Source of the DNA: a virus
IMG/VR virus record: IMGVR_UViG_3300025012_000002
Location: 62,001 to 126,000 of that record
Length of the DNA: 64,000 bases
Direction: 5' to 3' (one strand)
Shown here: positions 6,909-64,000 of the stretch, in pieces
Layout of the letters: every line of letters starts with the position of its first letter
How positions within the stretch are numbered: position 1 is the first letter of the stretch
Translations under genes and position numbers: made by a program
The notes under the pieces: model-generated
Seen by the model: only the letters and a program-made list of their open reading frames with translations
Databases searched by the model: none
What the model was told of the DNA's origin: nothing

Positions 6909-8830
6909 TGAAATTACTTAGACTACAAGCCACTAATTTTATGCAATATAAAGACTTAGATATAGACTTTACTTCACAAGGTCTATGCTTAGTTCAGGGC
7001 GAAATTACAGATAGTGGATTTGCCACGTCAAATACTGCAGGTAAAACTACCGCATTTGTGCATGCCCCATTATGGTGCTTATTCGGAGAGACACTAAATG
7101 GATTAAAAGCCGATGATGTAATAAATGATGTAGAAAATAAAAAGTGTTCTGTAACACTAGTAATAGAAAATAAGGATACAAAATATTTTATACAACGTAA
7201 TCGTAAACATGACTTAGCTAAAAACAATTTGCAGTTAGCTATGTACGAAGACTACCCAGAACATTCTACTTACTTAACGAAATCATCAATGGCAGAAACC
7301 CAAGCTGAGATAAATAGATTATTTGATCTTGATTGGAATATATTTACTAACACAATTGTATTCGGTCAAGGTAATATTAAAAGATTCTCTGAGCTTACTG
7401 ATAAGGAGCGTAAAGAATTACTTGATAAAATACTGTCATTAGATGTCTTACAACAGTGGCAAGCTAAAACTAAAGAAACAATTAAGAATTTTAATACACA
7501 AATGTCTAATATAAACCGTGTACTAAACGATAATGAATTATCTTATAAAAATATTACAAATAAATTAGCGAATATAGATAATTCTACAGAAAATTATGAT
7601 AAAACTAAAAAAGAAAAGATAAAAAATATACAGAATGAAATAACAGAATTACAAGCTAAATTAAATGCTCAAAACAATTCTGAAATAGAAAAGCAAGCTC
7701 TTCTATTAGAAAAGATAAAAGTAAGATTAAATAAGACACTGGGGAGCGGAGATGCCTATATAAACGTACTTGATAAGATACATAAAATTGATATAGAAAT
7801 TAAAAAGGAAGAGTATAGTATAGCTGCCTTAAATAGGGATATAAAAATAATAAAAAATAAGATAGATAATATAGAAAACGATGGTAGAGACAACTGTGAT
7901 AGCTGTGGCCAAACTATAACAAAAGAAAGTACTGAACATTTTAAAGAAACATATATTACACAATTATCTACTGAAAATATGCTGCTGGTACAACATGTTC
8001 ATGCTAAGGAAGCTTTTATATTTGAAAAGCAGACGGCGGAAAAAGAAAAAACTAAAATACAAGAAACTCTTAGTAGTAGGAAAGAATATGAGGAGTATAA
8101 AAATTCTATAGAAAAGAATATAGCTTTGCACGAAGCTAATAAGAATGCTCAAGATCATATTAGAGCAACAATAGAACAAAAGCTTGAGAGTATAAATAAA
8201 ATTCAAGATGAAGAAGCTCCTTATTTAAAAATGAAAAAGGAATATGCTGAGGAGCTATCCATTATTAAGCTCACTATTGCTAATTGCGAGGTAGCTAAAG
8301 ATGGTTTATTAAAAGAAATAGAATATTATAAATTTTGGGAAACAGGATTTTCTAATACAGGAATTAAATCATTCTTATTAGATAGTATAGTCCCATTTTT
8401 AACTGAGAAAGCTAATTATTATTTAGATTTTTTAACGAATAGCGAAATAAAAATATTATTTGATACAACTACTGTGAATAAGTCTAATGATAAAGAAGTA
8501 GATAAACTTAGTATAAAACTATATAAGAACGGTAAAGAGTATGGATTTGAGAAGACATCTGGCGGGGAAAAGAAAAGAATTGATATATGTATTTCGCTAG
8601 CACTACAATCTCTATTGACTTCCAAATCAAATTGTGTTAATGTGGGTATATTCGATGAGATATTTGATAGTTTAGATGATGTAGGTATTGATTGTATCAT
8701 GAAATTGTTACAAGAAGAAATAAAGCATAAAGACAGTATATTTGTAATAAGCCATAATGATAATTTAAAAGAAAAATTCAATAATATTATTACAGTTAAG
8801 AAAAATAATGGAGTAAGTATAATTGAATAA
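6908..8830 (+). CDS. gp46/SbcC-like SMC-family ATPase
   Basis: A 640-residue ABC ATPase of the Rad50/SbcC/gp46 type. The Walker A region is SNTAGKTTAF (about residues 42-51), with Ala where Gly is usual. Long coiled coils flank a zinc hook, NCDSCGQT (about 330-337). The signature is TSGGEKKRID (about 550) and Walker B is IFDEIFDSLDD (about 585). It would form the nuclease-ATPase complex with the gp47-like protein at 4981-6021. Its last 8 bases overlap the resolvase gene. Confidence 0.92.
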   Translation: MKLLRLQATNFMQYKDLDIDFTSQGLCLVQGEITDSGFATSNTAGKTTAFVHAPLWCLFGETLNGLKADDVINDVENKKCSVTLVIENKDTKYFIQRNRKHDLAKNNLQLAMYEDYPEHSTYLTKSSMAETQAEINRLFDLDWNIFTNTIVFGQGNIKRFSELTDKERKELLDKILSLDVLQQWQAKTKETIKNFNTQMSNINRVLNDNELSYKNITNKLANIDNSTENYDKTKKEKIKNIQNEITELQAKLNAQNNSEIEKQALLLEKIKVRLNKTLGSGDAYINVLDKIHKIDIEIKKEEYSIAALNRDIKIIKNKIDNIENDGRDNCDSCGQTITKESTEHFKETYITQLSTENMLLVQHVHAKEAFIFEKQTAEKEKTKIQETLSSRKEYEEYKNSIEKNIALHEANKNAQDHIRATIEQKLESINKIQDEEAPYLKMKKEYAEELSIIKLTIANCEVAKDGLLKEIEYYKFWETGFSNTGIKSFLLDSIVPFLTEKANYYLDFLTNSEIKILFDTTTVNKSNDKEVDKLSIKLYKNGKEYGFEKTSGGEKKRIDICISLALQSLLTSKSNCVNVGIFDEIFDSLDDVGIDCIMKLLQEEIKHKDSIFVISHNDNLKEKFNNIITVKKNNGVSIIE

Positions 8831-9559: not shown

Positions 9560-9589
9560 ACATATTAAATGCAAAGTAGGAGCAATTAC

Positions 9590-11884
9590 ATGGCAAGAGA
9601 AAAGAAAGTAAAAGAAGAAACATCTTATCAAGAAATAGAAAAAAAAGGTAAAGTAGAAAGCCTAGATAAAGCGCTTGCTGATATAAAGAAACAGTTTGGT
9701 AATGGTGCTATTATGAAATTTAATAGTGCTAATATAGAAAAGACAGAAACCATATCCACAGGGTCCATGGGGCTTGATAATGCTTTAGGAGTAGGAGGGC
9801 TTCCGCGCGGGAGGATAGTTGAAATATATGGATTCGAGGGGTCTTCCAAGACGACGTTAGCGTTGCACGTAATAAGGGAAGCCCAGAAGTTGGGTGAGAC
9901 GTGTGCTTTCATAGATGCTGAGCATGCTTTGGATATTAATTTAGCTAAAACATATGGAGTTAATGTAAATGAATTACTTATAAGCCAGACGACAACGGGA
10001 GAAGAAGCACTTGAGATAGCGGATACATTGATAAGCAGCGGTTCAATAGGGGTGGTGGTGATCGATTCTGTTGCAGCCTTAGTACCAAAAGCTGAGTTAG
10101 AGGGGGAGATGGGGCAGAGTCATATGGGGCTCCAAGCCCGCTTGCTCAGTCAAGCATGCTTGGCGGAAGATACAGAATTATTTGACCCTTTGACCGGAAA
10201 TATTGAGACTATCAAAAATATTGTTAATAACAAATTAGATTGGAATACCACAACATACAATGAAGGCACTAAGAAATTTATTATCTCTAGTATAGGCGAT
10301 TGGTTTGACCAAGGAAGTAGGACAGTATATAAAGTAAAATTAGATAATAGTAGTGTACTGAAATTAACCGGGGATCATAAAGTATTAACATTTATCGGCT
10401 GGAAAGATGTTAAGGATTTAACACCAACGGACTATATAGCAACCCCATACAGAATACCAGAAATAAAAAATTACAAGACAACGCTGAGTTCGGACGCCAT
10501 AAAAATAATAGCTTATATTTTAGGAGATGGTAATTTTACAACACCTAACTATGGCCTTAGCTTTACTAAGATGGACCCAGTAGTAATTAGTGACTTAGCT
10601 GATGCACTAAAAAGTTTTAATTGTAAGTTAAAAGCAATAGACCATAAAAGTTACCGTATAATAAAAGACGAGAGTCTACCTTTAGGGTCTTTTAAGTCAC
10701 CAGTAAAAGAACTATTAAAGAAATTAGGGATGCATGGCAAAAAATCTCCACAAAAATACATACCAAGCGAAATCTTTACGCTAAATAATACTGAGCTGGC
10801 TTTATTTATCTCTAGATTATGGTCTACAGACGGGCATGTTGTTAATGGTAACATTGTGTACAGCTCAACGTCACAGAAAATGATTAAGCAACTAAAACAT
10901 TTATTACTACGCTTTGGGATTCATAGTAAAATAATAATGTCAACTAGAGAACCTTACCATAATTTGTATAAATTAAATATTTTAGGACGAAAAAATACTA
11001 AAATATTTTTGGATAGCATAGGTTTGGTTGGTTGTAAGGACGCTAAACTTAGAGCCTTATTTAAAAATAAGGAGTATAAATCAGATCAAATTTCTAGAGA
11101 AGAGATGTTGCCTTACTCAGTTTTTGAAAAGATAAAAAAATATACATATGCTGCTGGTTTTACTGGGAAAGACATATCACATTTGATTGGTTATACAAAC
11201 AGAACCTCCTTCCCAGAATTTAGGCCAAATAGATTAAAAATTTCACGTGATATTTTATTTAAAATATCTAAATTTATAAAAAATGAGGAACTATTTGATT
11301 TATCTAACGGAGAATTATGTTGGTCAAAGGTGGAATCAGTAACAGAATGTGGCATGTCTAAAGTATATGATATATCTGTAAACGATTCTCCTAATTTCAT
11401 TATAGATAATATGGTTGTACACAACTGTAGAAAGCTCACAGCTACTATATCAAAAACAAATACAATAGCAATATTCATCAATCAAATAAGGCAAAAACTT
11501 ATTTCGTATGGTGACCCGAATGTTACTACATCAGGAAATGCTCTCAAATTTTATTCTTCTGTTAGGTTGGAGACAAAGAAAAGGGAAACTATAAAAGAGG
11601 GCGATAAGATACTTGGGCAAAAGGTTCATGTAAAGGTTGTTAAAAATAAGGTAGCACCACCGTTCAGTGAGTGTGATTTTGATTTAATTTATGGAAAAGG
11701 TATTGATCGTATAGGAGAAATTGTTGACTTATCTGAAAATTATGGTATAATAGAAAAGTCAGGAGCCTGGTATAAATATAACGGAGAAAACATTGGACAT
11801 GGCAGAGATAAGACTATAGAGTATTTAGAAGCTAACGATAATATTAAAAAAGAAATTGAGAGTAAGTTAAAGGAGATTAAATGA
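9590..11884 (+). CDS. recA: RecA recombinase with intein
   Basis: RecA-family recombinase of 764 residues including an in-frame intein. The RecA halves are 9590-10156 and 11426-11884, about 341 residues once spliced. The ATP-binding loop is [12 protein letters not shown] (about residue 80), with Ser where bacterial RecA has Gly before the Lys. Walker B is [11 protein letters not shown], followed by [11 protein letters not shown] at the insertion junction and INQIRQK after it. The ATG at 9590 follows TAGGAG; an upstream in-frame ATG at 9569 lacks a site. Its stop overlaps the next start (ATGA). It would perform strand exchange with the gp32-like SSB. Confidence 0.92.
10157..11425 (+). mobile_element. 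intein with LAGLIDADG-type homing endonuclease in RecA
   Basis: A 423-residue intein. It begins with Cys ([10 protein letters not shown]), has a TGDHKVLT block-B-like motif, and ends VVHN followed by Cys in the RecA extein, the standard splice chemistry. Two dodecapeptide motifs, AYILGDGNF and RLWSTDGHV, mark a LAGLIDADG endonuclease that would spread the element into empty recA genes. All splice-site residues are present, so it should be active in splicing. Confidence 0.92.
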
Positions 11885-25189: not shown

Positions 25190-25476
25190 AACTTTAAAAG
25201 AAATTAATGAGATAATAAGGAAGTCAAATTTGGTATAAGAATTGAGGGTATTGAGTAATCAATAAGCACTACATTGTTAATAATTTTAAGTAATAGGCAT
25301 ATAATTTTAGAAGTTATGGTGGGTTTTATATGATGCAAATATGAGATGAGTATTAATAGATATTATATAAGTTGTAATATGTCACAATGATAAAATGAAA
25401 ATTATAAGAAATGGATATAAATAAAATGCTCCACCGTCAGCCAGCTCGAATACCCCCCTTTCTAGGATTATCTTCC
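25190..25476. other. AT-rich non-coding stretch
   Basis: No credible ORF and no tRNA seen. It ends with a short GC-richer piece (CCACCGTCAGCCAGCTCG) before the tandem repeats. Confidence 0.4.
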
Positions 25477-25599
25477 AATATGACTATGTAAGATAGTCCT
25501 ACTTATATATAGCACTATATTACAATATGACTATGTAAGATAGTCCTACTTATATATAGCACTATATTACAATATGACTATGTAAGATAGTCCTACTTA
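25477..25599. repeat. 47-bp tandem repeat, 2.6 copies
   Basis: Units start at 25477, 25524 and 25571. Each contains the hairpin GACTAT-GTAAG-ATAGTC. The copies look identical. They lie just upstream of two promoters in a gene-free region, so they may be operators or replication iterons. Confidence 0.85.
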
Positions 25600-25627
25600 A
25601 TAAACTTTCAAATATGTAAAAAACTAC

Positions 25628-25985: not shown

Positions 25986-25987
25986 AA
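25971..25987. repeat. first copy of the dispersed 17-bp palindrome
   Basis: TTTTAGAAATTCTAAAA, with GGAGG next to it. About 28 copies or close variants follow up to 63.09 kb; see the findings for positions. Confidence 0.9.
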
Positions 25988-26001
25988 TGGAGGTTTTAAA
26001 A

Positions 26002-26604
26002 ATGATAAGTATACAAGATTTAGAAAAAGAGTTTAACGGTTTTAAAGATGTTAATGAGATTGCAAGCTTAGAACATACAAGAAAGTGCGACTATGCGTTT
26101 AATCTTGACACTAAGATTAATACTCAGATTGTTGGTATGAAAAAAACCGACTGGGAAAATTTGGGTAAGTCTTTTACGGTAAAGGTTGCCTCAACAGCAA
26201 ACGCATATAAGGACATGAAAGAAGGTGATTTGAAGATTGTAAGTGGGAAGGGCACTTTACTTGCTTATCTTGCTAACGGTGATTTACCTCTTGCAAACGC
26301 CTTTTCAAGTGCTGCATCTGAGAAAAGAAACGCAAGCAAAGAAAAAGCAGCAAAGAAAGAAACAGATTGTCTAACAGCTTTTACAAAGTACATAGATAGT
26401 CATATAAAAGACTTGTCAATAGGTGATACCAATATATTGATAAGTGTTATTCAAACAAAGTTGCATGACAAGGAAAAGGCGGAAAAGGAGAAAGAAAAAA
26501 TGCTGTTACTCTCTTCTCTGACTACTGAAGAGATTATTGAAAAGCTGGGTTTACAAGTGCCGGCTGTTAATCCACTTAATCCAATAAGTGAAGGTAGGAT
26601 TTAA
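26002..26604 (+). CDS. hypothetical protein with long structured leader
   Basis: A 200-residue protein, start fixed by GGAGG 10 bases upstream. The N-terminal half is mixed alpha/beta. The C-terminal half is Lys/Glu-rich and helical (KEKAAKKETDC, HDKEKAEKEKEKM). It has its own promoters and a terminator, so it is a single-gene unit, probably highly expressed. No family recognised. Confidence 0.75.
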   Translation: MISIQDLEKEFNGFKDVNEIASLEHTRKCDYAFNLDTKINTQIVGMKKTDWENLGKSFTVKVASTANAYKDMKEGDLKIVSGKGTLLAYLANGDLPLANAFSSAASEKRNASKEKAAKKETDCLTAFTKYIDSHIKDLSIGDTNILISVIQTKLHDKEKAEKEKEKMLLLSSLTTEEIIEKLGLQVPAVNPLNPISEGRI

Positions 26605-26636
26605 CATCATATCAAAATATCAAAAATTGAAGGGGT

Positions 26637-26672
26637 AATTTTAACCCCTTCAATACTTTTTTAATATTATAA
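26637..26672 (+). terminator. rho-independent terminator
   Basis: TTGAAGGGGT and ACCCCTTCAA form a 10-bp stem followed by TACTTTTTT. It ends the 26002 transcription unit. Confidence 0.9.
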
Positions 26673-26818
26673 GTTAGTCTTAATTTATAATATTAAAAAA
26701 GTATCATCTAATCAAAAATTAAATAAACAAATTATACTGAAAGATTTTAGATAACATTCTAAAATTAACGGTATCTTTTTGTTTAAAAGTCAATTAGAAT
26801 ATACTCCAATTTATTTGA

Positions 26819-26999
26819 TTTTAGAAATTCTAAAATGTAAAATTTAAAAATGATTTTAGAAATTCTAAAATGAAATTAACTAAAAAGATTAATGGGGGTT
26901 ACTCACAGGAAATAAAAATAAATAAATCGTAAAGACAATTAAATATGATTATCAGTACTTGAAGTGAAACCCTGTAAAATGATTTTAGAATTTCTAAAA
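26819..26999. repeat. three clustered copies of the 17-bp palindrome
   Basis: Copies at 26819-26835, 26854-26870 and 26983-26999, in a region without genes. The first two are 35 bp apart, as operators often are. Confidence 0.8.
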
Positions 27000-28022
27000 T
27001 GAAATAGCTAAAGTCAATCAGATAGACAATAAATATCTTGTTTACTTCATAAGAAGTATTACTACTGACTGATAATCTATGTCCTGAATAAACTTATATA
27101 GATACACGCTGTAGTAGGTTCCATTAGACCGATAGAAAGGTCTACTCAGAAGCTACAGTTTGAGTGTGAAGATTTGTATAAGCTCAGTGGATAAAGACCA
27201 GTGCTGGGCAAGGTGACCGGTGGGCTTGTGTGTCACGCACAATGTGGCGGTATGTATATTACCGTGGTAGCTATACTTTAACTAATGGTGAACAACAACC
27301 CTAATGAGGGGGTAGTGTTATAAAGACACTGTACCTTAGTAAGGTAAAGGTTGCTAGTAGTATACTGATAAGAGATACTCTGTTGAACTGTGATAACGAA
27401 CTGAGTATATACGTTTTAGATTTTCTAAAACGTATATAATAAAACAAATCAGTCTGAACACTTAAATATGTTCTAAACAGAATATCCAATGGCTAAGGCA
27501 ATCCGTCAGTGACAAGTGACCACGACTACCTACTAAAAAGGTAAACGGTGGCCCCTATGATTCGGTGGGTAAAGAATCAGACAACTAAATAGGTTAAGAG
27601 CAACCTATGTTATAATGCTCTCTAATAAGATATAATAAAACGTTAAAGGCTACGTGAAAAGCCTTCTAATAAGAAACAGTGTTCTTTGGTGGTTTGATTA
27701 GACTGATACTATAGGAATGCTATATAGTATGAACAAAATGAAATCACCACTACAATTGAAAATGTTGTACCTTATCCGTGGGCGGTGAAACGGAAATGAT
27801 ATTATATCAGTGGCCAATATGAGAAACACTATACGTGTTATTGAGGCCACATAACAAAATAATAGTGAGTTATGACGTTATCACTCAAAACAAAAACGTC
27901 TTTTTATTTAAATCCTTAATGTATTATGTTACGACAAATAAACAAATCGTATACTATATGATTTATAGGAAGCGGATACATCACTCGATATGGTCACCGC
28001 CATTGAGGATTTACGTAAGAAA
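26947..28022 (+). ncRNA. candidate large ornate non-coding RNA (region A)
   Basis: About 1.1 kb with no credible ORF and many helices. GATTATCAGT (26947-26956) pairs with 27068-27077. TAGACC/GGTCTA lies at 27125-27144. A 15-bp hairpin built around a palindrome copy lies at 27406-27438. Others are ATAGGTT/AACCTAT (27589-27608), AAGGCT/AGCCTT (27646-27665), ATACTATA/TATAGTAT (27706-27730) and GTGGCC/GGCCAC with an inner AACAC/GTGTT (27810-27850). GC-rich islets in an AT-rich setting suggest selection on RNA structure. It recalls the large phage RNAs known as GOLLD and ROOL, but identity cannot be shown here. Confidence 0.55.
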
Positions 28023-28063
28023 ATATTTTAGAATTTCTAAAACAATTTACATAGGGGGCTAAA

Positions 28064-28234
28064 ATGTGTGAGCATAAGATGGAGTATTTTGTATCTTTTG
28101 ATCAAGATGAGAATCCGATTGCTATGAAAGCTTGTACATGCAGTGATGCAATAGCTTGTAAAAATACTGAATGTGATGCTTGCTTTATCAACTCCGAGTA
28201 TAAAAAGACAGGTGAAAAAGTAAACAAATTTTAG
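28064..28234 (+). CDS. small Cys-rich protein between structured regions
   Basis: A 56-residue protein with a GGGGGC ribosome binding site and a palindrome copy at 28026-28042. It has C at residue 2, CTCSDAIAC, NTECDACFI: six Cys, probably metal-binding. It divides the two structured non-coding parts of region A, as the small ORF at 51831 does in region B. Confidence 0.55.
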   Translation: MCEHKMEYFVSFDQDENPIAMKACTCSDAIACKNTECDACFINSEYKKTGEKVNKF

Positions 28235-28319
28235 ACGCAAATATAGCGTTGGTTGTCAAGAGTAAAAAAATTGACAGTATCATTTATTAAACAAATCAAT
28301 TGACATATAATATTCATTA

Positions 28320-28462
28320 GGTACGAATCAGGATGGTCCAAATTCCATCTTTACGGAACTGCTTATGTCATCCAGATATACTGGAAGCAGTGTGAAGTCT
28401 TCTGATACAAGTATCAAATTCACTTTCAGATTGTGTAATAAATAATGTATGATACTGATTCT
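28320..28462 (+). ncRNA. structured RNA domain, region A2
   Basis: GAATCAG (28325-28331) pairs with CTGATTC (28455-28461). Enclosed are GATGG/CCATC, ACTGCTT/AAGCAGT (28358-28391) with CCAG/CTGG inside, and GTGAA/TTCAC around TGATAC-AA-GTATCA (28403-28416). TATAAT at 28306-28311 would place a transcript start near 28318. Confidence 0.6.
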
Positions 28463-28538
28463 AATAATAAAGATATTAAAACATTTACATCTTGAATCTA
28501 CTACTTAATTCTACTCATCAATAGTTAAGCCCCAACAA

Positions 28539-28769
28539 GGTAGTCTGCGACTTTTATGATTATCTACTAAAGCTTGCTTCGCAAGAAGCATCCTGCAGCA
28601 AGAACGTCATCGACGTATGAACCTTTCAATAATCTTTAACCTTAGGATTGTACTATAACTATCTACATATAACATTAATTATAATCAGGATAGTCTGAGA
28701 CTTTTATGATTAATTACTAGCAGATTTGTCAGCGACATATGCGTTCTGTTAATCTATTATGAACCTTTA
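28539..28769 (+). repeat. two diverged copies of a structured unit
   Basis: 28539-28627 and 28688-28769 share GG(A)TAGTCTG(C/A)GACTTTTATGATT at the start and TATGAACCTTT at the end, but have different middles. The first contains CTTGC-TTC-GCAAG and ACGTC-ATC-GACGT. No ORF; likely structured RNA. Confidence 0.6.
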
Positions 28770-28888
28770 CTTTTATGTTATATAAATATTATAACATAGA
28801 ATAATTTAAAAAATTTTTAAAAAAGTAAAAAAATGATATGTTAAATAAATAATTTTAGAATTTCTAAAACAAAAAAATGAGGTGCAAA

Positions 28889-28984
28889 ATGAAAAATATT
28901 AATTGGGAATTTTTAGTAGCATGGCTTGCTATATCAATAGGCGTATACTGGTTTTGGAAAAGTGTACTGATATACATTTTATAA
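28889..28984 (+). CDS. small membrane peptide
   Basis: A 31-residue ORF, largely one transmembrane helix (FLVAWLAISIGVYWFWK). It is preceded by a palindrome copy (28853-28869) and GAGGTG. Function unknown. Confidence 0.5.
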   Translation: MKNINWEFLVAWLAISIGVYWFWKSVLIYIL

Positions 28985-29668: not shown

Positions 29669-29742
29669 TTACCCGTGGACTAATGGCAAGTCGCTGTCCT
29701 TTGAAGTCAGATATCCTCGTTCGAGTCGAGGCGGGTAAGCCA
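29669..29742 (+). tRNA. tRNA-Gln (UUG)
   Basis: Acceptor TTACCCG pairs with CGGGTAA, and GCCA follows with CCA encoded. D arm is GACT-AATGGCA-AGTC. The anticodon loop CTTTGAA gives UUG; its stem has one mismatch. T arm is CCTCG-TTCGAGT-CGAGG. Just upstream (29644-29667) GGGGTCATCTAATGGTAGGGCA looks like the 5' half of another Gln-like tRNA. Confidence 0.85.
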
Positions 29743-30955: not shown

Positions 30956-32968
30956 ATGTTTAGTGATATAAAGATAGGAGTTCAGAAACAATTTGATAGA
31001 ATGAAAAGTCACAGTCTTTTCAGGGTTCAGGTTGATAAAGATTTGCTTTGGCAGACATATCTCAATAGTTTTCCAGAGGGTACTAACACTACATTCAGAG
31101 AACGAACAGAACATGACTGTCAGTGTTGCAGGCAGTTTATTAGAGCAATAGGAAATGTAGTTGCTGTAATTGATGGAAAGCTTGAGAGTATTTGGGATGT
31201 AAAAGTTGGTGGACATTATCAGATAGTAGCTGATGCTCTCTCTACATTGATTAAGAAATCATCTATTGAGAATGTTTTTCTACACACCGAACATACTGCT
31301 GGAACTGATAAGAATTATCAGAATCTTGAGTCAGGAGAAATCTTAACTTGGGAACATTTCCTCATGCAGATTCCGGGGGAATCAGTTGTTGGGAAAGCTG
31401 GTATAGGCACTAAGCTTGCTGATTTCCAAGGTTCAAAAGATGTATTGTATCGCAGCTTATCAGAGATTACTACTGATGCTATTGATACTGTTCTTGAACT
31501 AATTGCACAGAATTCTTTGTATCGAGGAGAGGAGAATAAATTTGCAATAGAAAGTTTTCAGAAGCTTAAGAAGCAATTTGACAAACTGAAGACTGCTAAA
31601 GAGAAAGATATATTTTGCTGGTCTCAAATTAAATCTATATCGCAGTCAGTATCCCGTATTCGTAATACTGCTATTGGTACATTACTAGTTGACATATCTG
31701 AGGGGCGTGAGCTTGAAGCATCTGTAGCTTCTTTCGAGTCAAAAGTTGCCCCAACAAATTACAAGCGTCCAACTGCTTTGATTACAAAAGCTATGATAGA
31801 AAAGGCAAAAGAGAAGATTGAGGAACTTGGGCTTACCTCTGCACTTGAACGTAGATATGCTATCATGAATGATATAACAATCAATAATATTTTGTTTGCT
31901 GATCGTGAGACAAAAAAGAAATTAAATGCTGATATCTTTGATGAGCTTAGTAGTAAAGTACCAGAGACTGTCAAGAACTTTGACAAGGTTGAAGAAGTTA
32001 CTATTGAGACCTTTATCGACAATATCCTGCCCAAGGCCGAATCTATAGAGCTTATGTTTGAAAACAAGCATGTAGGAAATTTAGTTAGCTTGATAGCACC
32101 TGTTGATTCTGATGCCAAGAATATGTTTAAATGGCCTAATAAGTTTTCATGGTCGTATGCTGGTGAACTGGCAGATTCAATCAAGGAACGAGTCAAGAAT
32201 GCTGGAGGTAGGGTTGACGGAGATTTAAGATGCTCTCTATCGTGGTTTAATTTTGACGACCTTGATTTGCATATGGTTGAGCCTAAAGAACATATTTACT
32301 ATGGACACAAGGTATCTTATCACACAAAAGGCAATCTTGATGTTGATATGAATGTAGGTGTAGGTAGGTCAAGAACTCCTGTAGAGAATATCTGTTATCC
32401 AGACCGTAAGCATATTACAGAAGGTATATATAAACTACAGGTGAATAATTTTAGCAGGAGAGAAACTGTTGACACTGGTTTTGATGTAGAGATTGAATTT
32501 GACGGGATAATTCATTCATGTTCCTATACAAAGCCTGTTAAAGATGGTGAGACCATAACTGTTGCTGAGATTAAGTATACACATAAGAATGGTTTTGAGA
32601 TTATTAATTCTTTACCACCTTCTCAGACTACAAAAGAAGTTTGGAATATTTCAACACAGGCATTTCATAAAGTCTCAATGGTAATGTTTTCACCTAATCA
32701 CTGGGATGATAAAGTCGTTGGTAATAAGCACTATTTCTTTATGCTTGATGATTGCTTGAATGATGGTAAGGCAAGAGGATTCTTTAATGAATTTCTAACC
32801 GATGAACTTAGTGCACATAGAAAGGTATTTGAAGTAGTTGGAGCAAAGATGAAGACTGAGGAATCTAACAATCAGTTAAGTGGTCTTGGTTTCTCATCAA
32901 CACAAAGAAACAGTGTATTATGTAAAGTTAAGGGAAGTTTCAATCGTGTAGTTAAAATTAACTTTTAA
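30956..32968 (+). CDS. large conserved hypothetical protein with C-terminal beta domain
   Basis: A 670-residue protein preceded by TTGACA, a palindrome copy (30923-30939) and AAAGGAGG. The N-terminus has FRVQVDKDLLWQTYLNSFPEG and HDCQCCRQFIRAIGN (CxCC, perhaps metal). A long helical middle follows. At about residues 425-560, DLDLHMVEPKEHIYYGHK and GNLDVDMNVG resemble the YfaP/DUF2135-like beta domain. It forms a unit with the 134-residue gene 11 bases downstream. Role unknown; its size and leader suggest an important early or middle protein. Confidence 0.75.
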   Translation: MFSDIKIGVQKQFDRMKSHSLFRVQVDKDLLWQTYLNSFPEGTNTTFRERTEHDCQCCRQFIRAIGNVVAVIDGKLESIWDVKVGGHYQIVADALSTLIKKSSIENVFLHTEHTAGTDKNYQNLESGEILTWEHFLMQIPGESVVGKAGIGTKLADFQGSKDVLYRSLSEITTDAIDTVLELIAQNSLYRGEENKFAIESFQKLKKQFDKLKTAKEKDIFCWSQIKSISQSVSRIRNTAIGTLLVDISEGRELEASVASFESKVAPTNYKRPTALITKAMIEKAKEKIEELGLTSALERRYAIMNDITINNILFADRETKKKLNADIFDELSSKVPETVKNFDKVEEVTIETFIDNILPKAESIELMFENKHVGNLVSLIAPVDSDAKNMFKWPNKFSWSYAGELADSIKERVKNAGGRVDGDLRCSLSWFNFDDLDLHMVEPKEHIYYGHKVSYHTKGNLDVDMNVGVGRSRTPVENICYPDRKHITEGIYKLQVNNFSRRETVDTGFDVEIEFDGIIHSCSYTKPVKDGETITVAEIKYTHKNGFEIINSLPPSQTTKEVWNISTQAFHKVSMVMFSPNHWDDKVVGNKHYFFMLDDCLNDGKARGFFNEFLTDELSAHRKVFEVVGAKMKTEESNNQLSGLGFSSTQRNSVLCKVKGSFNRVVKINF

Positions 32969-42912: not shown

Positions 42913-42940
42913 TTTTAGAAATTCTAAAATAAAAATAAAG

Positions 42941-42959
42941 CTCTAGGCATAGCCTAGAG
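42941..42959 (+). repeat. CTCTAGGC hairpin, left border of island 2
   Basis: CTCTAGGC-ATA-GCCTAGAG, followed by AACTACGAGTG and then the first core GTTAGAC. A matching hairpin borders the right end at 44943. Confidence 0.8.
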
Positions 42960-42970
42960 AACTACGAGTG

Positions 42971-42977
42971 GTTAGAC
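42971..42977 (+). other. lone recombination core at the left end of island 2
   Basis: GTTAGAC occurs without a full attC on its left, only the hairpin. It marks the entry point of the array and could be an attI-like half. Confidence 0.5.
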
Positions 42978-42990
42978 ATAGGGAGATGAT

Positions 42991-43176
42991 ATGGTCAGAC
43001 TAATTTTTAAGCGTACATGGCAGGACAATATTAGCGGCTCTAGGAGCGAAAGTTTTGAAACCGTTGACATGGATATTCCAGTCATTGAGGAGAAATTATC
43101 AGCAGGTGGATTCGGTGAGTCTGGGTTCGACCGAACCGATTTAATCGGCGTGGAGATATTGACGCCCAACGCATAG
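42991..43176 (+). CDS. cassette gene, paralogue of 14470 gene
   Basis: A 61-residue protein ending LIGVEILTPNA, where the last codons and stop lie in the attC site. It matches the 14470 product in M-x-R, DMDIP and GVE(L/I)L-x-PNA. GGGAGATGAT is the ribosome binding site. Function unknown. Confidence 0.7.
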   Translation: MVRLIFKRTWQDNISGSRSESFETVDMDIPVIEEKLSAGGFGESGFDRTDLIGVEILTPNA

Positions 43177-43227
43177 CTCAGGCGCGGCGGTGCTTTTCCG
43201 CCGTCGCGCTGGAGCGCAGGGTTAGCA
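43164..43227 (+). other. attC-like site
   Basis: GCCCAAC left core, GGCGCGGCGGTGC-TTTT-CCGCCGTCGCGC stem, right core GTTAGCA at 43221-43227. Clear site. Confidence 0.85.
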
Positions 43228-43245
43228 CACAATTACGGAGGAAAA

Positions 43246-43575
43246 ATGAAAGACAAAATTCTTGACTGGTTTGCACATGGCGAGCGCGGAATCAGTTCCG
43301 AGGCGATGGCCTGTGCTGTCGGTGGCGTGAAGCCAAACGAATCGTGGGCGCGGTTCGGAAACCACCCGAGCGACCCCGACGACCTGAAACGGTGCATCAA
43401 GTTTTTGGACGCCGTACCAGAGGCGCGGCAGCACCTTGGCGAGGTAGCAAAACTCAGCAAGACGTGGGCGAAGTTGGTTGAGCATTGGGACGAACTCGAA
43501 TCGATGTTCCGCGAAGAATTCCCGACCGGCAAAGCCCCGAAGCTGTACGAGCGGATGAAAAATCTTGGGTGCTAA
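43246..43575 (+). CDS. cassette gene, hypothetical
   Basis: A 109-residue GC-rich gene with CGGAGGAAAA upstream. The product looks like a small helical protein with FAHGERGISSEAMACAVGG and NHPSDPDDLKRC. This type is familiar from mobile regions as an unknown conserved protein. Its stop lies in the next attC. Confidence 0.7.
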   Translation: MKDKILDWFAHGERGISSEAMACAVGGVKPNESWARFGNHPSDPDDLKRCIKFLDAVPEARQHLGEVAKLSKTWAKLVEHWDELESMFREEFPTGKAPKLYERMKNLGC

Positions 43576-43625
43576 CGATGAAGTCAGCGGCGGGTCTTTT
43601 CGCCCGCTGGACTGACTTGTTATGC
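43570..43625 (+). other. attC-like site
   Basis: TGCTAAC left core, AGTCAGCGGCGGG...CCCGCTGGACT stem, right core GTTATGC at 43619-43625. Confidence 0.85.
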
Positions 43626-43638
43626 AAAGGAGAGACTT

Positions 43639-43854
43639 ATGACTATCGGAGACAAAGTTAAAGTTAAGCACGGGGCAACAAGGTGGCTTAAAAGTCGAGA
43701 TCATTGGGATGATTACATAGATCACGATATTGATGAGATGGTCGGCGTGATTACTGATGATTATAGTCATTTATCTGGGGACGATTCTCATTTTTGTGTT
43801 GAACTTGGATTTGATTATGTTGTTGGCATACCAGAGCGCCTACTTGAGTTGTAG
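43639..43854 (+). CDS. cassette gene, SH3-like small protein
   Basis: A 71-residue protein with GDKVKVKHGATRW and VGIPERLLEL at the end, typical of SH3-like small beta-barrels. AAAGGAG upstream. Function unknown. Confidence 0.65.
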   Translation: MTIGDKVKVKHGATRWLKSRDHWDDYIDHDIDEMVGVITDDYSHLSGDDSHFCVELGFDYVVGIPERLLEL

Positions 43855-43895
43855 GCATAACGTAAAAGTCACCGGATCGCCGGCACCAACGAAGA
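43855..43895 (+). other. degenerate attC-like site
   Basis: GCATAAC and a CACCGGATCGCCGGC hairpin are present, but I see no GTTRRRY right core. The site may be decayed, making the flanking two ORFs one unit. Confidence 0.45.
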
Positions 43896-43907
43896 AAGGA
43901 GATGAGC

Positions 43908-44072
43908 ATGACAAAGGGAGAATTACTTAGAGCACTAGATGGATATGACGATGATGCGGTTGTTGTTTGCAGAGACGAACACTGCGGGTGGGACAACATC
44001 CTGCGAGTAGAGCCGGACGGATGCTCTGTCGCAATCGTATTTGGCGGCGGATCACCGTTCAGCGACGAGTGA
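43908..44072 (+). CDS. cassette gene, small acidic protein
   Basis: A 54-residue protein with TKGELLRALDGYDDDAVVV, CxxEHCGWDNI and a glycine-rich end. Proteins with this start are common in phages and cassettes. AAGGAGATG upstream. Function unknown. Confidence 0.65.
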   Translation: MTKGELLRALDGYDDDAVVVCRDEHCGWDNILRVEPDGCSVAIVFGGGSPFSDE

Positions 44073-44073
44073 C

Positions 44074-44120
44074 GCACAACAATTAGTTGACCCCGTATGG
44101 GGTCGAACGGGAGGTTAGAA
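44074..44120 (+). other. attC-like site
   Basis: GCACAAC, GTTGACCCCGTATGGGGTCGAAC hairpin, right core GTTAGAA at 44114-44120. Confidence 0.75.
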
Positions 44121-44121
44121 A

Positions 44122-44298
44122 ATGCACTGGCTCACTTTGGATTGGTGGAAATTTCTTCTCGGAAAACCAGCCGACGGAATAAGCCGATGGACTGCGTTTT
44201 GGTGCAGAGCAAGAGGACACCCGTATGGTGTAGTTTGGTACAACATGGGACTTGAACCAGACATGCACTGTAAAAACTGTTACGACGATTTGGGATAA
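44122..44298 (+). CDS. cassette gene, small Cys/Trp protein
   Basis: A 58-residue protein starting in the attC edge. It has WCRARGHPYGVVWYN and CKNCYDDLG, three Cys that may bind zinc, and many Trp. Function unknown. Confidence 0.6.
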   Translation: MHWLTLDWWKFLLGKPADGISRWTAFWCRARGHPYGVVWYNMGLEPDMHCKNCYDDLG

Positions 44299-44354
44299 CG
44301 CCGGAATTCAGCCGTCCGAGCGTAGCGAGGATCGGCTGGAATGACTTGTTATGC
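44293..44354 (+). other. attC-like site
   Basis: GGATAAC includes the stop. CAGCCGTCCGAGCG...GATCGGCTG stem, right core GTTATGC at 44348-44354. Confidence 0.8.
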
Positions 44355-44370
44355 ATCTTTGGAGGTTTGA

Positions 44371-44625
44371 ATGAGCGAAGAAAAGATTGTAGTGATCGAC
44401 AAAAGAGAAAGCGTTCTGGAGTCTTTTTACAAAGATTTTGTGACGTTCTCTTTGCTGGCGTTTTGCATCTACATAAGCCAAGGCAGCACATTTTGGACAT
44501 TCGTTACCGGGTTGTTGTTTTTGCTTTTCACGTTTGCCAAGATTTCAATCATCATGAAACGGCACAATGTCTTTAAGAGCAAGAAGGAACTTCTGGATTG
44601 GGCGAACAAGCTAGATGATGCATAA
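44371..44625 (+). CDS. cassette gene, membrane protein
   Basis: An 84-residue protein with two hydrophobic helices (FSLLAFCIYI and FVTGLLFLLFTFAKISII) and a charged C-terminus. GGAGG upstream. Probably inner-membrane. Function unknown. Confidence 0.65.
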   Translation: MSEEKIVVIDKRESVLESFYKDFVTFSLLAFCIYISQGSTFWTFVTGLLFLLFTFAKISIIMKRHNVFKSKKELLDWANKLDDA

Positions 44626-44682
44626 CGTAAAGTTAACCGGCTCCGCGCTTTTGCGGAGTCCGGGTTGAACGACAGGTTAGAG
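44620..44682 (+). other. attC-like site, twin of 17953
   Basis: GCATAAC, then the same ACCGGCTCCGC-GCTTTT-GCGGAGTCCGGGT hairpin as in island 1, right core GTTAGAG at 44676-44682. Confidence 0.85.
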
Positions 44683-44688
44683 GGCATC

Positions 44689-44856
44689 ATGAAGCTGTTT
44701 GACGAAAGTAGGTTGGCCGCGCTATACCGGAAGTTGCAAGCTGAGTCGGTAAGCTCATGTTCTGGCGGGCTTGCAGCAGCCAGAAGCGGAAAGAATCGAG
44801 CCACGACAAAGGGCGCGCGACCTTTGAAAATGGAAAGTACCCAGACAGTTTCATGA
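44689..44856 (+). CDS. cassette gene, small basic protein (uncertain)
   Basis: A 55-residue Ser/Arg/Lys-rich ORF with a weak ribosome binding site. It fills the last cassette of island 2. A longer frame on the opposite strand also exists, so the coding strand is not certain. Confidence 0.4.
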   Translation: MKLFDESRLAALYRKLQAESVSSCSGGLAAARSGKNRATTKGARPLKMESTQTVS

Positions 44857-44860
44857 TGCG

Positions 44861-44926
44861 CTCTAACGCTGGCGTAACCGGCGCGGAGCCGAAGGCGAAG
44901 CGTCCGCGTTGACGCAAATGTTGGAA
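44861..44926 (+). other. attC-like site, last of island 2
   Basis: CTCTAAC, CGGCGCGGAGCC...CGTCCGCGTTG arms, right core GTTGGAA at 44920-44926. The hairpin repeat follows 16 bases later. Confidence 0.75.
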
Positions 44927-44942
44927 CTCAGGAGAAGCAAAG

Positions 44943-44982
44943 CTAGGCACAGCCTAGAGAATTTACTACGTAAAGGGAGAAA
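44943..44982 (+). repeat. CTAGGC hairpin, right border of island 2
   Basis: CTAGGC-ACA-GCCTAG, then AGAATTTACTACGTAAAGG. Apart from the first two bases it equals the leader at 46975-47010 in front of the MoxR gene. It lacks the leading CT, as if cut at the island junction. Confidence 0.8.
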
Positions 44983-51202: not shown

Positions 51203-51274
51203 ATGCCAAATCATTGTGATAACGATTTATATATAAGAGGTACGAGGGTTGATTTAAATAAGTTCAGAAATTAA
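51203..51274 (+). pseudogene. 5' remnant of an Api92-like (DUF1281-type) gene
   Basis: AGGAG, then 23 codons reading MPNHCDNDLYIRGTRVDLNKF, which is the typical N-terminus of Api92-like phage proteins (MPNWCxNxLxIxG). It stops abruptly where the structured non-coding region B starts, and no remainder is seen. Confidence 0.6.
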
Positions 51275-51815
51275 ACTGTCATGAGTCTCGCAATAACAAT
51301 TGCAGTTGGTGCTTCGCCAACAAGTGCAAAGATTTAATTACTACAAACATATTAACCTAATTATTATTATAAGATCTTCTTGTGAAAAATTACAACTTCC
51401 AATTTGTCACATTCAGATACTTATAATAATAATTAGATCAAATTCTTTAGTCATGATGTTTTAGAAATTATAAATTAATTAATTGTATTGCTTATTTCGT
51501 AAGAAATATTATTGCACGTCTATGGTCAATAAAATTGACAGGTCAGATGCTTCGTCTGATTAGAGAAGTACTTTTAATACTACTAATTGTTTGATCCGCT
51601 TCTTTTAACTACACTACGTTTCGTTAAAAGCTTAGGATCAAAAGTGGGTGCAATAAAATAATAGTAAGTTATGCGTCTCAAATTGGATAGTGCTGCGCTA
51701 TCTTTACACAAAAAAGTTTTGTGAAAACACATACAATTTTAATGTTTTGCGATACTACCGCAAAAAGCTTCGCTTACGAATCATTAAAATTAGTCAATAG
51801 GCATAACTAGAAAAT
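51275..51815 (+). ncRNA. structured non-coding region B1
   Basis: No ORF but many stems. A 17-bp perfect inverted repeat lies at 51357-51373 and 51420-51436. TTTGATCC/GGATCAAA (51590-51642) encloses TTTTAAC/GTTAAAA. ATTTTAATG/CATTAAAAT (51736-51790) encloses TTTTGCG/CGCAAAA. AGTTATGC (51667-51674) closes on GCATAACT (51801-51808). Several hairpins have CTTCG-type loops. Some short strings recur in region A. It may be part of the retron-like locus or a separate large RNA. Confidence 0.55.
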
Positions 51816-51830
51816 AAATGGAGGGAAAAT

Positions 51831-51956
51831 ATGGAGACTATTAAGGGCATTGTAATAGCTGGTCTGTGCACAGATGATGGACACCATAAGCAATGGTATC
51901 TAGAACAGATACTAATAAGACTAGGATTTGACTTAGAAGTTCTAAACCCAGACTAA
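51831..51956 (+). CDS. small protein inside region B
   Basis: A 41-residue ORF with GGAGGG upstream (ETIKGIVIAGLCTDDGHHKQW at its start, first 20 or so residues, not a known motif). It divides the structured region as the 28064 ORF does in region A. Function unknown. Confidence 0.45.
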   Translation: METIKGIVIAGLCTDDGHHKQWYLEQILIRLGFDLEVLNPD

Positions 51957-51989
51957 ATTAGCTGGGAAAAGGGATACCAAATTAAATAA

Positions 51990-52340
51990 TTATTGAGCGT
52001 CTCTGTCTGAGTGACAACTATAGTGGTTCGCTATATTATGTAAAAATTTACTACAATTTATCCAGGCGACACGCCTGGATTTCTTTGGCTCAATTAACAA
52101 GTATTTTGCTCGTCTATGCAATAAACCTTGCCAATTCTATAAAAGTATAGAATGGTTATAAAGGTGCTGGAGGTAGATGTTTCATCTACTCGAAAATAAA
52201 TTAAAAGATAACAACACGATCGGAGTCGTTCTCGGCGCAGGACAGATATAAAATGCTATGGTACGTGTGCTTTAATTATAGCACTACTTATTGATTCGAT
52301 AAGTATTAGTAAAATTAGTAGTTAACATCTACCACATTAG
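51990..52340 (+). ncRNA. structured region B2 with candidate retron msr-msd
   Basis: ATTGAGC (51992-51998) closes on GCTCAAT (52088-52094), around TATAG/CTATA and a 9-bp hairpin ATCCAGGCG-ACA-CGCCTGGAT (52060-52080). ATTCTATA/TATAGAAT follows (52134-52153). Then GGTAGATGTT (52172-52181) and AACATCTACC (52324-52333) form an inverted repeat about 160 bases long, the size and layout of retron a1/a2 repeats. Inside is TACTTAT/ATAAGTA. I cannot identify the branch guanosine with confidence. Confidence 0.5.
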
Positions 52341-52374: not shown

Positions 52375-52605
52375 ATGAAAATACATGATGATGTACTCCA
52401 TGCAATAGATATAGATGAGTGGAAACATAGCTGGCATCTTAAAAGAAATAAGTGCGCTGATGTGGATTGGATGGATGAAGACAATATTAGACAATGTAAA
52501 AGAGTTATACTAGATAAAATATATAGTAGAGAACATGAATTGAAATTGTTACGTATAGCTCGGGATGCAATTAACATAATAGATGTCAGTAGTAAGGAGG
52601 GCTAA
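52375..52605 (+). CDS. small protein between the RNA region and the RT
   Basis: A 76-residue charged helical protein with AAAGGAGG upstream, ending 1 base before the RT start. It contains DIDEWKHSWHLKRNKCADVD. Its position suggests an accessory of the retron-like unit, but nothing in its sequence shows an effector function. Confidence 0.6.
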   Translation: MKIHDDVLHAIDIDEWKHSWHLKRNKCADVDWMDEDNIRQCKRVILDKIYSREHELKLLRIARDAINIIDVSSKEG

Positions 52606-52606
52606 A

Positions 52607-53509
52607 ATGTCTTATACAATTTTCAGAATTCCTAAAAGGAAGGGCGGAGAGAGAATCATAGAAGCCCCAGATGCAATACTAAAAGCTAAGCAGCAAGCTT
52701 TAATTCCTATACTACAAAAGACATTTAAAGTGTCACCATTTGCCCACGCATTTCAGCCATATAAAAATATAGTTACAATGGCAATACCGCATGTAGGGAA
52801 GAAATGGGTGGGTTGCATAGATATTGAGGACTTCTTTCCGTCAATACAATATAGAATATTTATGGAGGTGTCTTCTTGCAAAACCAATAGTTTTAGTAAA
52901 AATAAAAACTTTAAATTATACCACGAAGGAAACGAAAAGACTAGAAAAGAATTTAATGAGAATTATAATATTTTGAATACATGTTTTAATGATTTCGAGG
53001 ATAATAAATACCAAAGGTTACCACAAGGAGCCCCCACTTCTCCTCTTATATCTAATATAATTATGTATAGTATTGATTGGAAAATGGCATGGAAATGTTT
53101 TACTTATCAGTGTGACTACACAAGATATGCAGATGATTTGGTTGTATCTGGTAGTAGTAAGCAGGATGTAGTTAACAGTTTGAAGTACGCTGAAAAATTA
53201 CTTACTGGGATTGGGTTAAAAGTTAATCATAAGAAAACCAAAATAATGCATAGATCTAAGAGACAATTAGTATGTGGTATAGTAGTAAATGAAAAATTAA
53301 ATATACCACGTAAGTATAGAAAGAATCTTAGAGCAGAGATCCATCAGCAGAACTTAAGAGGAGAAGAACTGCGTAATGATACTAAAGGTAAGATGGCATT
53401 CCAAGATATGGTATTAAAAAATAAGAAAGATACTTGGAGTAGTTATAGTGTGGTTAGAAGTATCTTATTTACTAAGCGTATGGACAGTGAGTTAAGGGTG
53501 CAGATATGA
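52607..53509 (+). CDS. retron-type reverse transcriptase
   Basis: A 300-residue RT, the usual length for retron RTs. It has FRIPKRKGGERIIEAPD (about 5-21), FAHAFQPYKNIVTMAIPHVG (where retrons have NAxxH), motif A DIEDFFPSI (about 74-82), motif B LPQGAPTSPLISN (about 142-154), motif C YTRYADDLVV (about 178-187), GLKVNHKKTK and QLVCGIVVNEKLNIPRKYRK (retrons usually VTG). The motif set is retron, not DGR or group II. It would make cDNA from an adjacent RNA. AGGAGG upstream. Confidence 0.87.
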   Translation: MSYTIFRIPKRKGGERIIEAPDAILKAKQQALIPILQKTFKVSPFAHAFQPYKNIVTMAIPHVGKKWVGCIDIEDFFPSIQYRIFMEVSSCKTNSFSKNKNFKLYHEGNEKTRKEFNENYNILNTCFNDFEDNKYQRLPQGAPTSPLISNIIMYSIDWKMAWKCFTYQCDYTRYADDLVVSGSSKQDVVNSLKYAEKLLTGIGLKVNHKKTKIMHRSKRQLVCGIVVNEKLNIPRKYRKNLRAEIHQQNLRGEELRNDTKGKMAFQDMVLKNKKDTWSSYSVVRSILFTKRMDSELRVQI

Positions 53510-62833: not shown

Positions 62834-63196
62834 ATGAATTTAAAAGCATTGTATAAAACATGTGGAGATATTACTACAAGTAAGGGCTTTAATACTAGTC
62901 AACATGCCACACAGATATGTCTCATAGCAACAGAAATTGCAGAAGCATTAGAGCATGTAAGTACAGCATCCTGTGGATATGAAACTAAAATGTTTATTGA
63001 AACACTAAGAACCATATCAGATGTATACGAGAAGTATAGAAAGGATGAAACTATCAGTCATGAAGATAATTCTAATTTAGAAAATCTAAATGATTTCTTA
63101 GAAGAGATAGCAGACATACAAATTAGAATAGCATCTTATGTGACTACTCTACTGGGGCTAAAGCCCAGTAGCTTCCTAGTTCAACGACCCGTCTGA
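62834..63196 (+). CDS. MazG-like nucleotide pyrophosphohydrolase, 3' end cut by an IS200/IS605-type element
   Basis: A 120-residue reading frame. ICLIATEIAEALEHV and FLEEIADIQIRIASYV supply the ExxE...ExxD metal-binding pattern of all-alpha MazG-like enzymes, which hydrolyse (d)NTPs. From about 63140 the frame reads into the right end of the TnpB element (LGLKPSSFLVQRPV), so the natural C-terminus is missing. The core may still be active. Confidence 0.75.
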   Translation: MNLKALYKTCGDITTSKGFNTSQHATQICLIATEIAEALEHVSTASCGYETKMFIETLRTISDVYEKYRKDETISHEDNSNLENLNDFLEEIADIQIRIASYVTTLLGLKPSSFLVQRPV

Positions 63197-64000
63197 CAGC
63201 ACGTGGTCTCCCTGGGCGTTTAGTTTCCGAGTGTCCCTCGGTACTCTGTAATAATCCGAATTGGAGTATATTCTTGGCTGCATTGTTGTCTCTATCAATT
63301 ATAGTATTACATTCTCGACAAGTCCATTCTCTGTCCTTTAAACTAAGAGATGTATTAATCCAACCACAGTTGTTACATCTTTTAGATGAAGGAAAGAAAC
63401 GATCAACCTGACCAAAATATACTCCGTTCCAATTTGATTTGTATTTAAGTTGCTGGATAAATTCTGACCAACCACTATCGGCAATAGACTTAGCCAACTT
63501 ATGGTTTGCCAGCATACCTTTCACATTTAAGTCTTCAACAAATATAGCTTGGCTCTCGCTAACTAATTTATGACTTAACTTGTGTAGGAAATCTTTTCTT
63601 TGATTAGTTATTTTATCGTGTACACATGCAACTTTGATTTTTGCTTTGTTTCTTCTATTACTTCCTTTTTGTTTACGAGAGAGTAATCTTTGTAGCCGTT
63701 TCAGTTTAAGTTCAGATTTTCTTAGGAACTTAGGAGCATCTATTGTTTCTCCAGTAGATGTAACTATAAATGATTTAATTCCTAAATCAATACCTATAGT
63801 ATCTCCTTGTTGTTTTTGCTTGACATCAATATCTAATTCACATAATATAGATGCGAAGTACTTTCCTGATGAGGACTTAGATATGGTAATGCTTTTCATT
63901 ACCCCATCTATATCCCTGTGAATAACAATAGGTATGGAGTTAAATTTCGGGAGATATAATAACTTACTCTGCACATCAATAGAAAAATGTTGAGGAGCAA
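63144..64000 (-). CDS. tnpB: TnpB, RNA-guided nuclease of an IS200/IS605-type element (N-terminus beyond the window)
   Basis: The frame is open to the window edge on the minus strand; GTG at 63974 is internal. The RuvC-type residues are GIDLGIKSF, FVEDLNVKGML and CNTIIDRDNNAAKN. The zinc ribbon is CNNCG...CRECN. All three catalytic acidic residues are present. TnpB cleaves DNA guided by an omega RNA from the element's right end, protecting the element at its site. No TnpA is visible. Confidence 0.9.
   Translation of the reverse strand, partial: APQHFSIDVQSKLLYLPKFNSIPIVIHRDIDGVMKSITISKSSSGKYFASILCELDIDVKQKQQGDTIGIDLGIKSFIVTSTGETIDAPKFLRKSELKLKRLQRLLSRKQKGSNRRNKAKIKVACVHDKITNQRKDFLHKLSHKLVSESQAIFVEDLNVKGMLANHKLAKSIADSGWSEFIQQLKYKSNWNGVYFGQVDRFFPSSKRCNNCGWINTSLSLKDREWTCRECNTIIDRDNNAAKNILQFGLLQSTEGHSETKRPGRPRAVRRVVELGSYWALAPVE
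63150..63172 (-). mobile_element. right-end hairpin of the TnpB element
   Basis: CTACTGGGGCT-A-AGCCCAGTAG is a near-perfect stem at the 3' end of tnpB, overlapping its last codons, as expected for the right end and omega RNA of IS605-type elements. It abuts the truncated MazG-like gene. Confidence 0.7.

Follow-up and report, generated by a model that had tools for sequence, protein, structure and literature searches.

A gene-free stretch of a large phage genome as a candidate for an orphan structured RNA of about 0.95 kb

The analysed window is a stretch of 64,000 nucleotides that corresponds to bases 62001-126000 of a virus record of 194,269 bases. It contains a region of more than 1 kb without genes (26947-28022, here called region A), which we consider a well-supported candidate for a structured RNA, not a proven one. 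Our preferred reading, which we hold tentatively and at slightly below an even chance, is that the segment from 26947 to about 27905 encodes on its plus strand a single structured, non-coding RNA, an orphan with a length of roughly 0.95 kb. The reading is based on the fold excess and its bias to one strand, on the lack of open reading frames (ORFs) and on the location in a tRNA island. What is observed is the lack of an ORF, a plus-biased fold excess, the uniqueness in this genome, an upstream terminator and the tRNA-rich setting, and from this we infer transcription, the presence of a single molecule and every functional step outlined below.

The window contains genes for a family A DNA polymerase, a T4 Rnl1-like RNA ligase, a CCA-adding-type nucleotidyltransferase and a sigma-70-like factor, and a reading of the sequence also identified a RecA gene with an intein-like insertion (9569-11884). 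Judged from this gene content, the window is part of a large tailed-phage genome. With the DNA polymerase as bait, the sole match was an identical fragment of 6 kb, in a collection from which records very near to the window may be absent. Compared by a protein of 670 amino acids, the closest relatives have an identity of about 64%. Three tandem repeats of 47 nt, each containing the hairpin GACTATGTAAGATAGTC, are located at 25463-25603.

The features in and around region A, in order along the window, are as follows.
26626-26654, plus strand: intrinsic terminator that closes the preceding gene (25987-26604), with an 11-bp stem that includes five G-C pairs, followed by a T-run
26656-26704, plus strand: A+T-rich inverted repeat of 24 bp, 96% complementary, directly 3' of the terminator
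26819-26835 and 26854-26870: two copies of the palindrome TTTTAGAAATTCTAAAA upstream of region A
26947-27077, plus strand: domain A1, with a 10-bp closing stem GATTATCAGT/ACTGATAATC (pair probability at least 0.97), inner hairpins and the palindrome copy at 26983-26999
27094-27181, plus strand: domain A2, a long interrupted rod with the cap TAGACC[GATAGAAA]GGTCTA, from pair probabilities
27182-27252, plus strand: A3, a G+C-rich stretch with no local structure excess (z -0.7)
27254-27365, plus strand: domain A4, a long arm that branches close to its tip, with helices that have a mean pair probability of 0.93-0.98
27406-27438, plus strand: 15-bp hairpin built around the palindrome copy at 27414-27430, from the palindrome scan and pair probabilities
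27439-27600, plus strand: middle of A5, with G+C islets and no local structure excess (z -0.8)
about 27609-27876, plus strand: domain A6, branched, with the arms TGGTGGTTTGATT/AATGAAATCACCA, TCCGT[GGGCGGTGAA]ACGGA and GTGGCC/GGCCAC, from pair probabilities
27874-27905, plus strand: uncertain candidate for a weak 3' end, from a reading of the sequence (GACGTT, a 15-nt loop, AACGTC and TTTTT)
28026-28042: palindrome copy ahead of the next gene
28064-28234: ORF of 56 amino acids, the next gene after region A
29669-29742, plus strand: tRNA-Gln (TTG), identified by ARAGORN and by Rfam RF00005 (54 bits)

The surroundings agree with what the initial annotation had described, namely a gene-free stretch that follows a terminator and precedes small ORFs, with a tRNA gene 1.6 kb downstream (the tRNA-Gln starts at 29669, 1.65 kb away). 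The longest ORFs that overlap 26947-28022 encode 75 amino acids (plus strand, GTG start, 27835-28062) and 62 amino acids (minus strand), and the small ORFs of region A obtained no support from PHROGs (best E 0.14). A conserved ORF hidden in the region had been named as an observation that would count against an RNA; no credible one was found under the genetic codes tried. Reading through any single stop codon yields at most 115 codons, and alternative genetic codes were rejected. The low z of the segment between the terminator and region A (26655-26940, z -6.4) is explained by the A+T-rich inverted repeat at 26656-26704. The terminator scan did not call the candidate 3' end at 27874-27905, and region A has no clear terminator at its 3' end.

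Folded as RNA, 26947-27900 has an MFE of -262.2 kcal/mol on the plus strand (z -8.5), compared to -231.7 kcal/mol on the minus strand (z -5.1). An independent run on a stretch of 959 nt gave -262.4 kcal/mol and a z of -9.0, with none of 20 shuffles as stable as region A; as only 10 to 20 shuffles were made, the z values of these long stretches are approximate. In comparison, 40 other windows of 959 nt tiled over the 64 kb gave z values from +1.4 to -4.7, the extremes of which include windows that overlap region A and a second structured region, region B. Within 184 kb of the 194-kb record, 12 gaps without ORFs are 450 nt or longer; the gap holding region A ranks first (z -9.0 and -7.4 kcal per 100 nt), followed by the gap of region B (z -6.2), while the remaining gaps range from -2.6 to +0.6. 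The chain of long stems noted at the outset is thus borne out, with more than 30 helices of at least four pairs in the pair probabilities. The G+C islets in the stems (TAGACC/GGTCTA, AAGGCT/AGCCTT, TCCGT/ACGGA and GTGGCC/GGCCAC) are also real, with minimum pair probabilities of 0.78-0.98, whereas the claim that they are compensating comes from a single sequence.

The fold signal is concentrated in the discrete domains A1, A2, A4 and A6. When scored with 200 shuffles each, the z values on the plus and minus strands were -5.4 and -3.2 for A1 (26940-27082), -4.1 and -2.2 for A2 (27083-27185), -2.6 and -0.8 for A4 (27246-27370), and -4.5 and -2.9 for the core of A6 (27617-27870). Both in the region as a whole and in each of these domains singly, the fold is stronger on the plus strand, which is expected from G-U pairs in RNA and not from DNA inverted repeats. 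The extent of 26947-28022 given in the initial annotation holds only in part: the structured portion spans approximately 26947-27905, while the tail at 27906-28062 has little structure on the plus strand (z -2.1) and two internal stretches lack a local excess. A long-range helix of 8 bp (27390-27397/27877-27884) has a pair probability of about 0.7, and such helices are expected by chance in a sequence of 1 kb. Since the helices that would tie the 3' half together are modest and of this chance-like kind, pairing does not support the notion that region A is one molecule.

Region A is an orphan, with no homolog in any of the collections searched. A search of Rfam, proposed in the initial annotation, identified only tRNAs at the gathering score and no family for region A, and even at E<=10 over 26600-28900 there was only noise below every cut-off. 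The Rfam covariance models of group I and group II introns did not match region A either. BLASTN searches against phages and plasmids gave short chance matches only, and 38 related viral records, searched at the DNA level, gave nothing below an E of 0.015. Covariance models built from a single sequence, for A2 and A4 (run against 81 sources) and for a part of A6 (run against 46 records), recovered only themselves or nothing, an empty result being weak evidence for models of this kind. The exact motifs ATCCGTGGGCGGTGAAACGGA and ATTCGGTGGGTAAAGAAT had no matches in viral contigs. The motif GGTGGCCCCTATGATT had four, which are chance matches in contigs richer in G+C (0.42-0.61), with no likeness beyond the 16 bases. 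Among the nine matches to GGTGACCGGTGGGCTTG in viral contigs, those in two A+T-rich contigs (L102 and L107; 24 nt, 96%) seemed promising but were rejected, as the match in L102 is internal to an ATPase-like gene and the L107 contig is a near twin of L102. An exact match of 20 bases in a Phycisphaerae genome was also rejected, as its surroundings have no similarity to region A. The upstream protein of 200 amino acids, used as bait, identified no relative.

Region A is located in a block of the genome that is marked by a palindrome of 17 bp, TTTTAGAAWTTCTAAAA, for which the window contains 31 near-matches where 0.17 are expected, none of them before 25971. With at most one mismatch, the palindrome is confined to a block of 32 kb (25971-58162 in the window) within the whole 194-kb record. 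Two copies are placed inside region A (26983-26999 and 27414-27430), and many copies are found 2-12 nt ahead of a ribosome-binding site. The palindrome is probably the DNA operator of a phage regulator for a gene block that includes region A.

The next large gene downstream encodes the protein of 670 amino acids (30956-32968), which belongs to phrog_1735. At least one tRNA was found within the stretch examined in 29 of 80 related loci with homologs of this protein. In the related phage L013, tRNAs and further folded RNAs occupy the stretch directly upstream of the phrog_1735 gene. The folded RNAs at 7820-8780 lie among small ORFs and tRNAs, and one of them (8471-8690) is closed by a 19-bp stem and has an energy of -74 kcal/mol. 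A search for the folded RNAs of L013 in phages gave no match. Given the tRNA-Gln at 29669 and the tRNAs and folded RNAs upstream of the phrog_1735 gene in L013, region A and the tRNA-Gln appear to sit in an island of tRNAs and small RNAs. At 28490-28800, in a gene-free segment with a weak fold excess, an element of 34 nt (CAAGGTAGTCTGCGACTTTTATGATTATCTACTA) occurs twice, the copies being 85% alike and 150 nt apart.

Large phage RNAs are abundant and elaborate, and region A shares with them a fold that is far more stable than that of shuffled sequences. The GOLLD RNAs are encoded by phages, long (many exceed 800 nt), have an elaborate predicted fold and are often located near tRNA genes, while the ROOL RNAs occur in phages and prophages near tRNA islands, have a complex fold and no known protein partner; the function of both is unknown (PMC12286853). 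Region A resembles GOLLD in that it has about 959 folded nucleotides and no ORF, which is within the length of GOLLD (about 800 nt or more), and in its location in a phage record 1.65 kb upstream of the tRNA-Gln, a weak likeness as it concerns a single tRNA. However, it does not match the Rfam model, which covers the conserved 3' region of GOLLD, at the gathering score or at E<=10. A closed multimeric nanocage is a further characteristic of GOLLD. With ROOL it shares the phage setting near a tRNA island and the complex fold, but it has no Rfam match or homologs and is longer than the ROOL of 659 nt studied by cryo-EM. The initial annotation is thus supported in part: a large structured non-coding RNA is what best fits the fold, strand bias, absence of ORFs and setting, whereas its being of the GOLLD/ROOL kind is an analogy only.

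The second structured region, region B, lies in the non-coding stretch 51203-52330. At 51265-52335 on the plus strand it consists of four clear tandem units and a weaker fifth, with z values from -3.1 to -5.0. Every unit has a closing stem whose 5' arm is followed by a shared GTCT motif, as well as a long hairpin and smaller ones. Directly 3' of the array is a gene for a retron-type reverse transcriptase (RT; 52583-53509, plus strand; Pfam RVT_1, 8e-26; PADLOC RT_XIII, 1e-64), and region B looks like a retron of a phage that carries multiple msr-msd RNAs. It would be unusual for a phage retron to have more than one template RNA; the literature searched contained no description of such an array, although this does not establish that it is new. 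Region A is similar in being a structured non-coding RNA candidate in the same phage block, and 22 nt close to its end (27853-27874) are similar to the beginning of unit B3 (91%, E 0.05). However, its domains lack the a1/a2 plan and a shared GTCT motif, and the RT gene is about 24.7 kb away.

Elsewhere in the window, a G+C-rich island at 42940-44960 (plus strand) contains small ORFs separated by attC-like sites, with a G+C content of about 0.51 in 43201-44159 compared to 0.34 for the window. One of the attC-like sites matches a plasmid sequence beside aadA2/aadA3 (82%, E 2e-5). A search for the tyrosine-recombinase family in the record gave no match, and the island looks like an integron cassette array without an integrase, which has already been described in virulent phages (PMC9892861). 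The hairpin AAGCTCTAGGCAYAGCCTAGAGAA is present in three copies, at 42938 and 46972 in the window and at 100634 in the record, two of which flank the cassette array. A TnpB-like protein is encoded near the end of the window (63144-63974, minus strand).

The main rival to a single RNA is that region A represents a chain of small independent RNAs (A1, A2, A4 and A6), either cut from one precursor or transcribed separately, which we regard as unlikely but worth serious weight. The significant signal falls into local domains that unstructured stretches set apart, region B in the same genome is a chain of this kind with four to five self-folding units, and the syntenic place in L013 contains separate folded RNAs between tRNAs. 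On the other hand, the domains of region A have no common plan or motif, unlike the units of region B, and no promoter or terminator convincingly divides one domain from another.

There is a small probability that region A is decayed or incidental, that is, a relic of a gene, an intron or a mobile element that folds well by chance and through A+T-rich palindromes. No homologs were found, other parts of the window contain mobile material (integron cassettes, TnpB, HNH and the intein), and a part of the fold, the 15-bp hairpin at 27406-27438, stems from a DNA palindrome. However, a z of -9 compared both to shuffles and to all other gaps speaks against decay, as does the finding that A2 and A6, which lack the palindrome hairpin, are still significant; the bias to the plus strand and the lack of matches to group I or II introns or to any other Rfam family also argue against it. 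A function at the level of DNA or as a leader, with operators, a promoter, a leader of the small genes from 28064 or an origin, and with the structure being secondary, is slightly less likely still. It would account for the four copies of the palindrome in or just ahead of region A and for the small genes that come next, but a leader or an operator has no need of 0.95 kb of folding biased to the plus strand, and the other gaps in the block that carry the palindrome show no such fold excess.

Under the preferred reading of a single structured RNA, region A would be transcribed on the plus strand along with the 32-kb gene block that carries the palindrome, and it would act as an RNA with four stable domains joined by G+C-rich stretches, which may be engaged in contacts over a long range or between molecules. 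If it behaves like the known large phage RNAs, an analogy, it would build up in infected cells as an assembly of RNA or of RNA and protein. It is doubtful, yet conceivable, that region A is the first member to be seen of a new family of giant phage RNAs that is unrelated in sequence to GOLLD and ROOL, folds by itself and perhaps assembles itself without protein. If so, it would be a third sequence-unrelated large phage RNA in a tRNA-rich setting, suggesting that such RNAs have evolved repeatedly in phages, and it would offer a new case in which to examine how common assemblies made only of RNA are.
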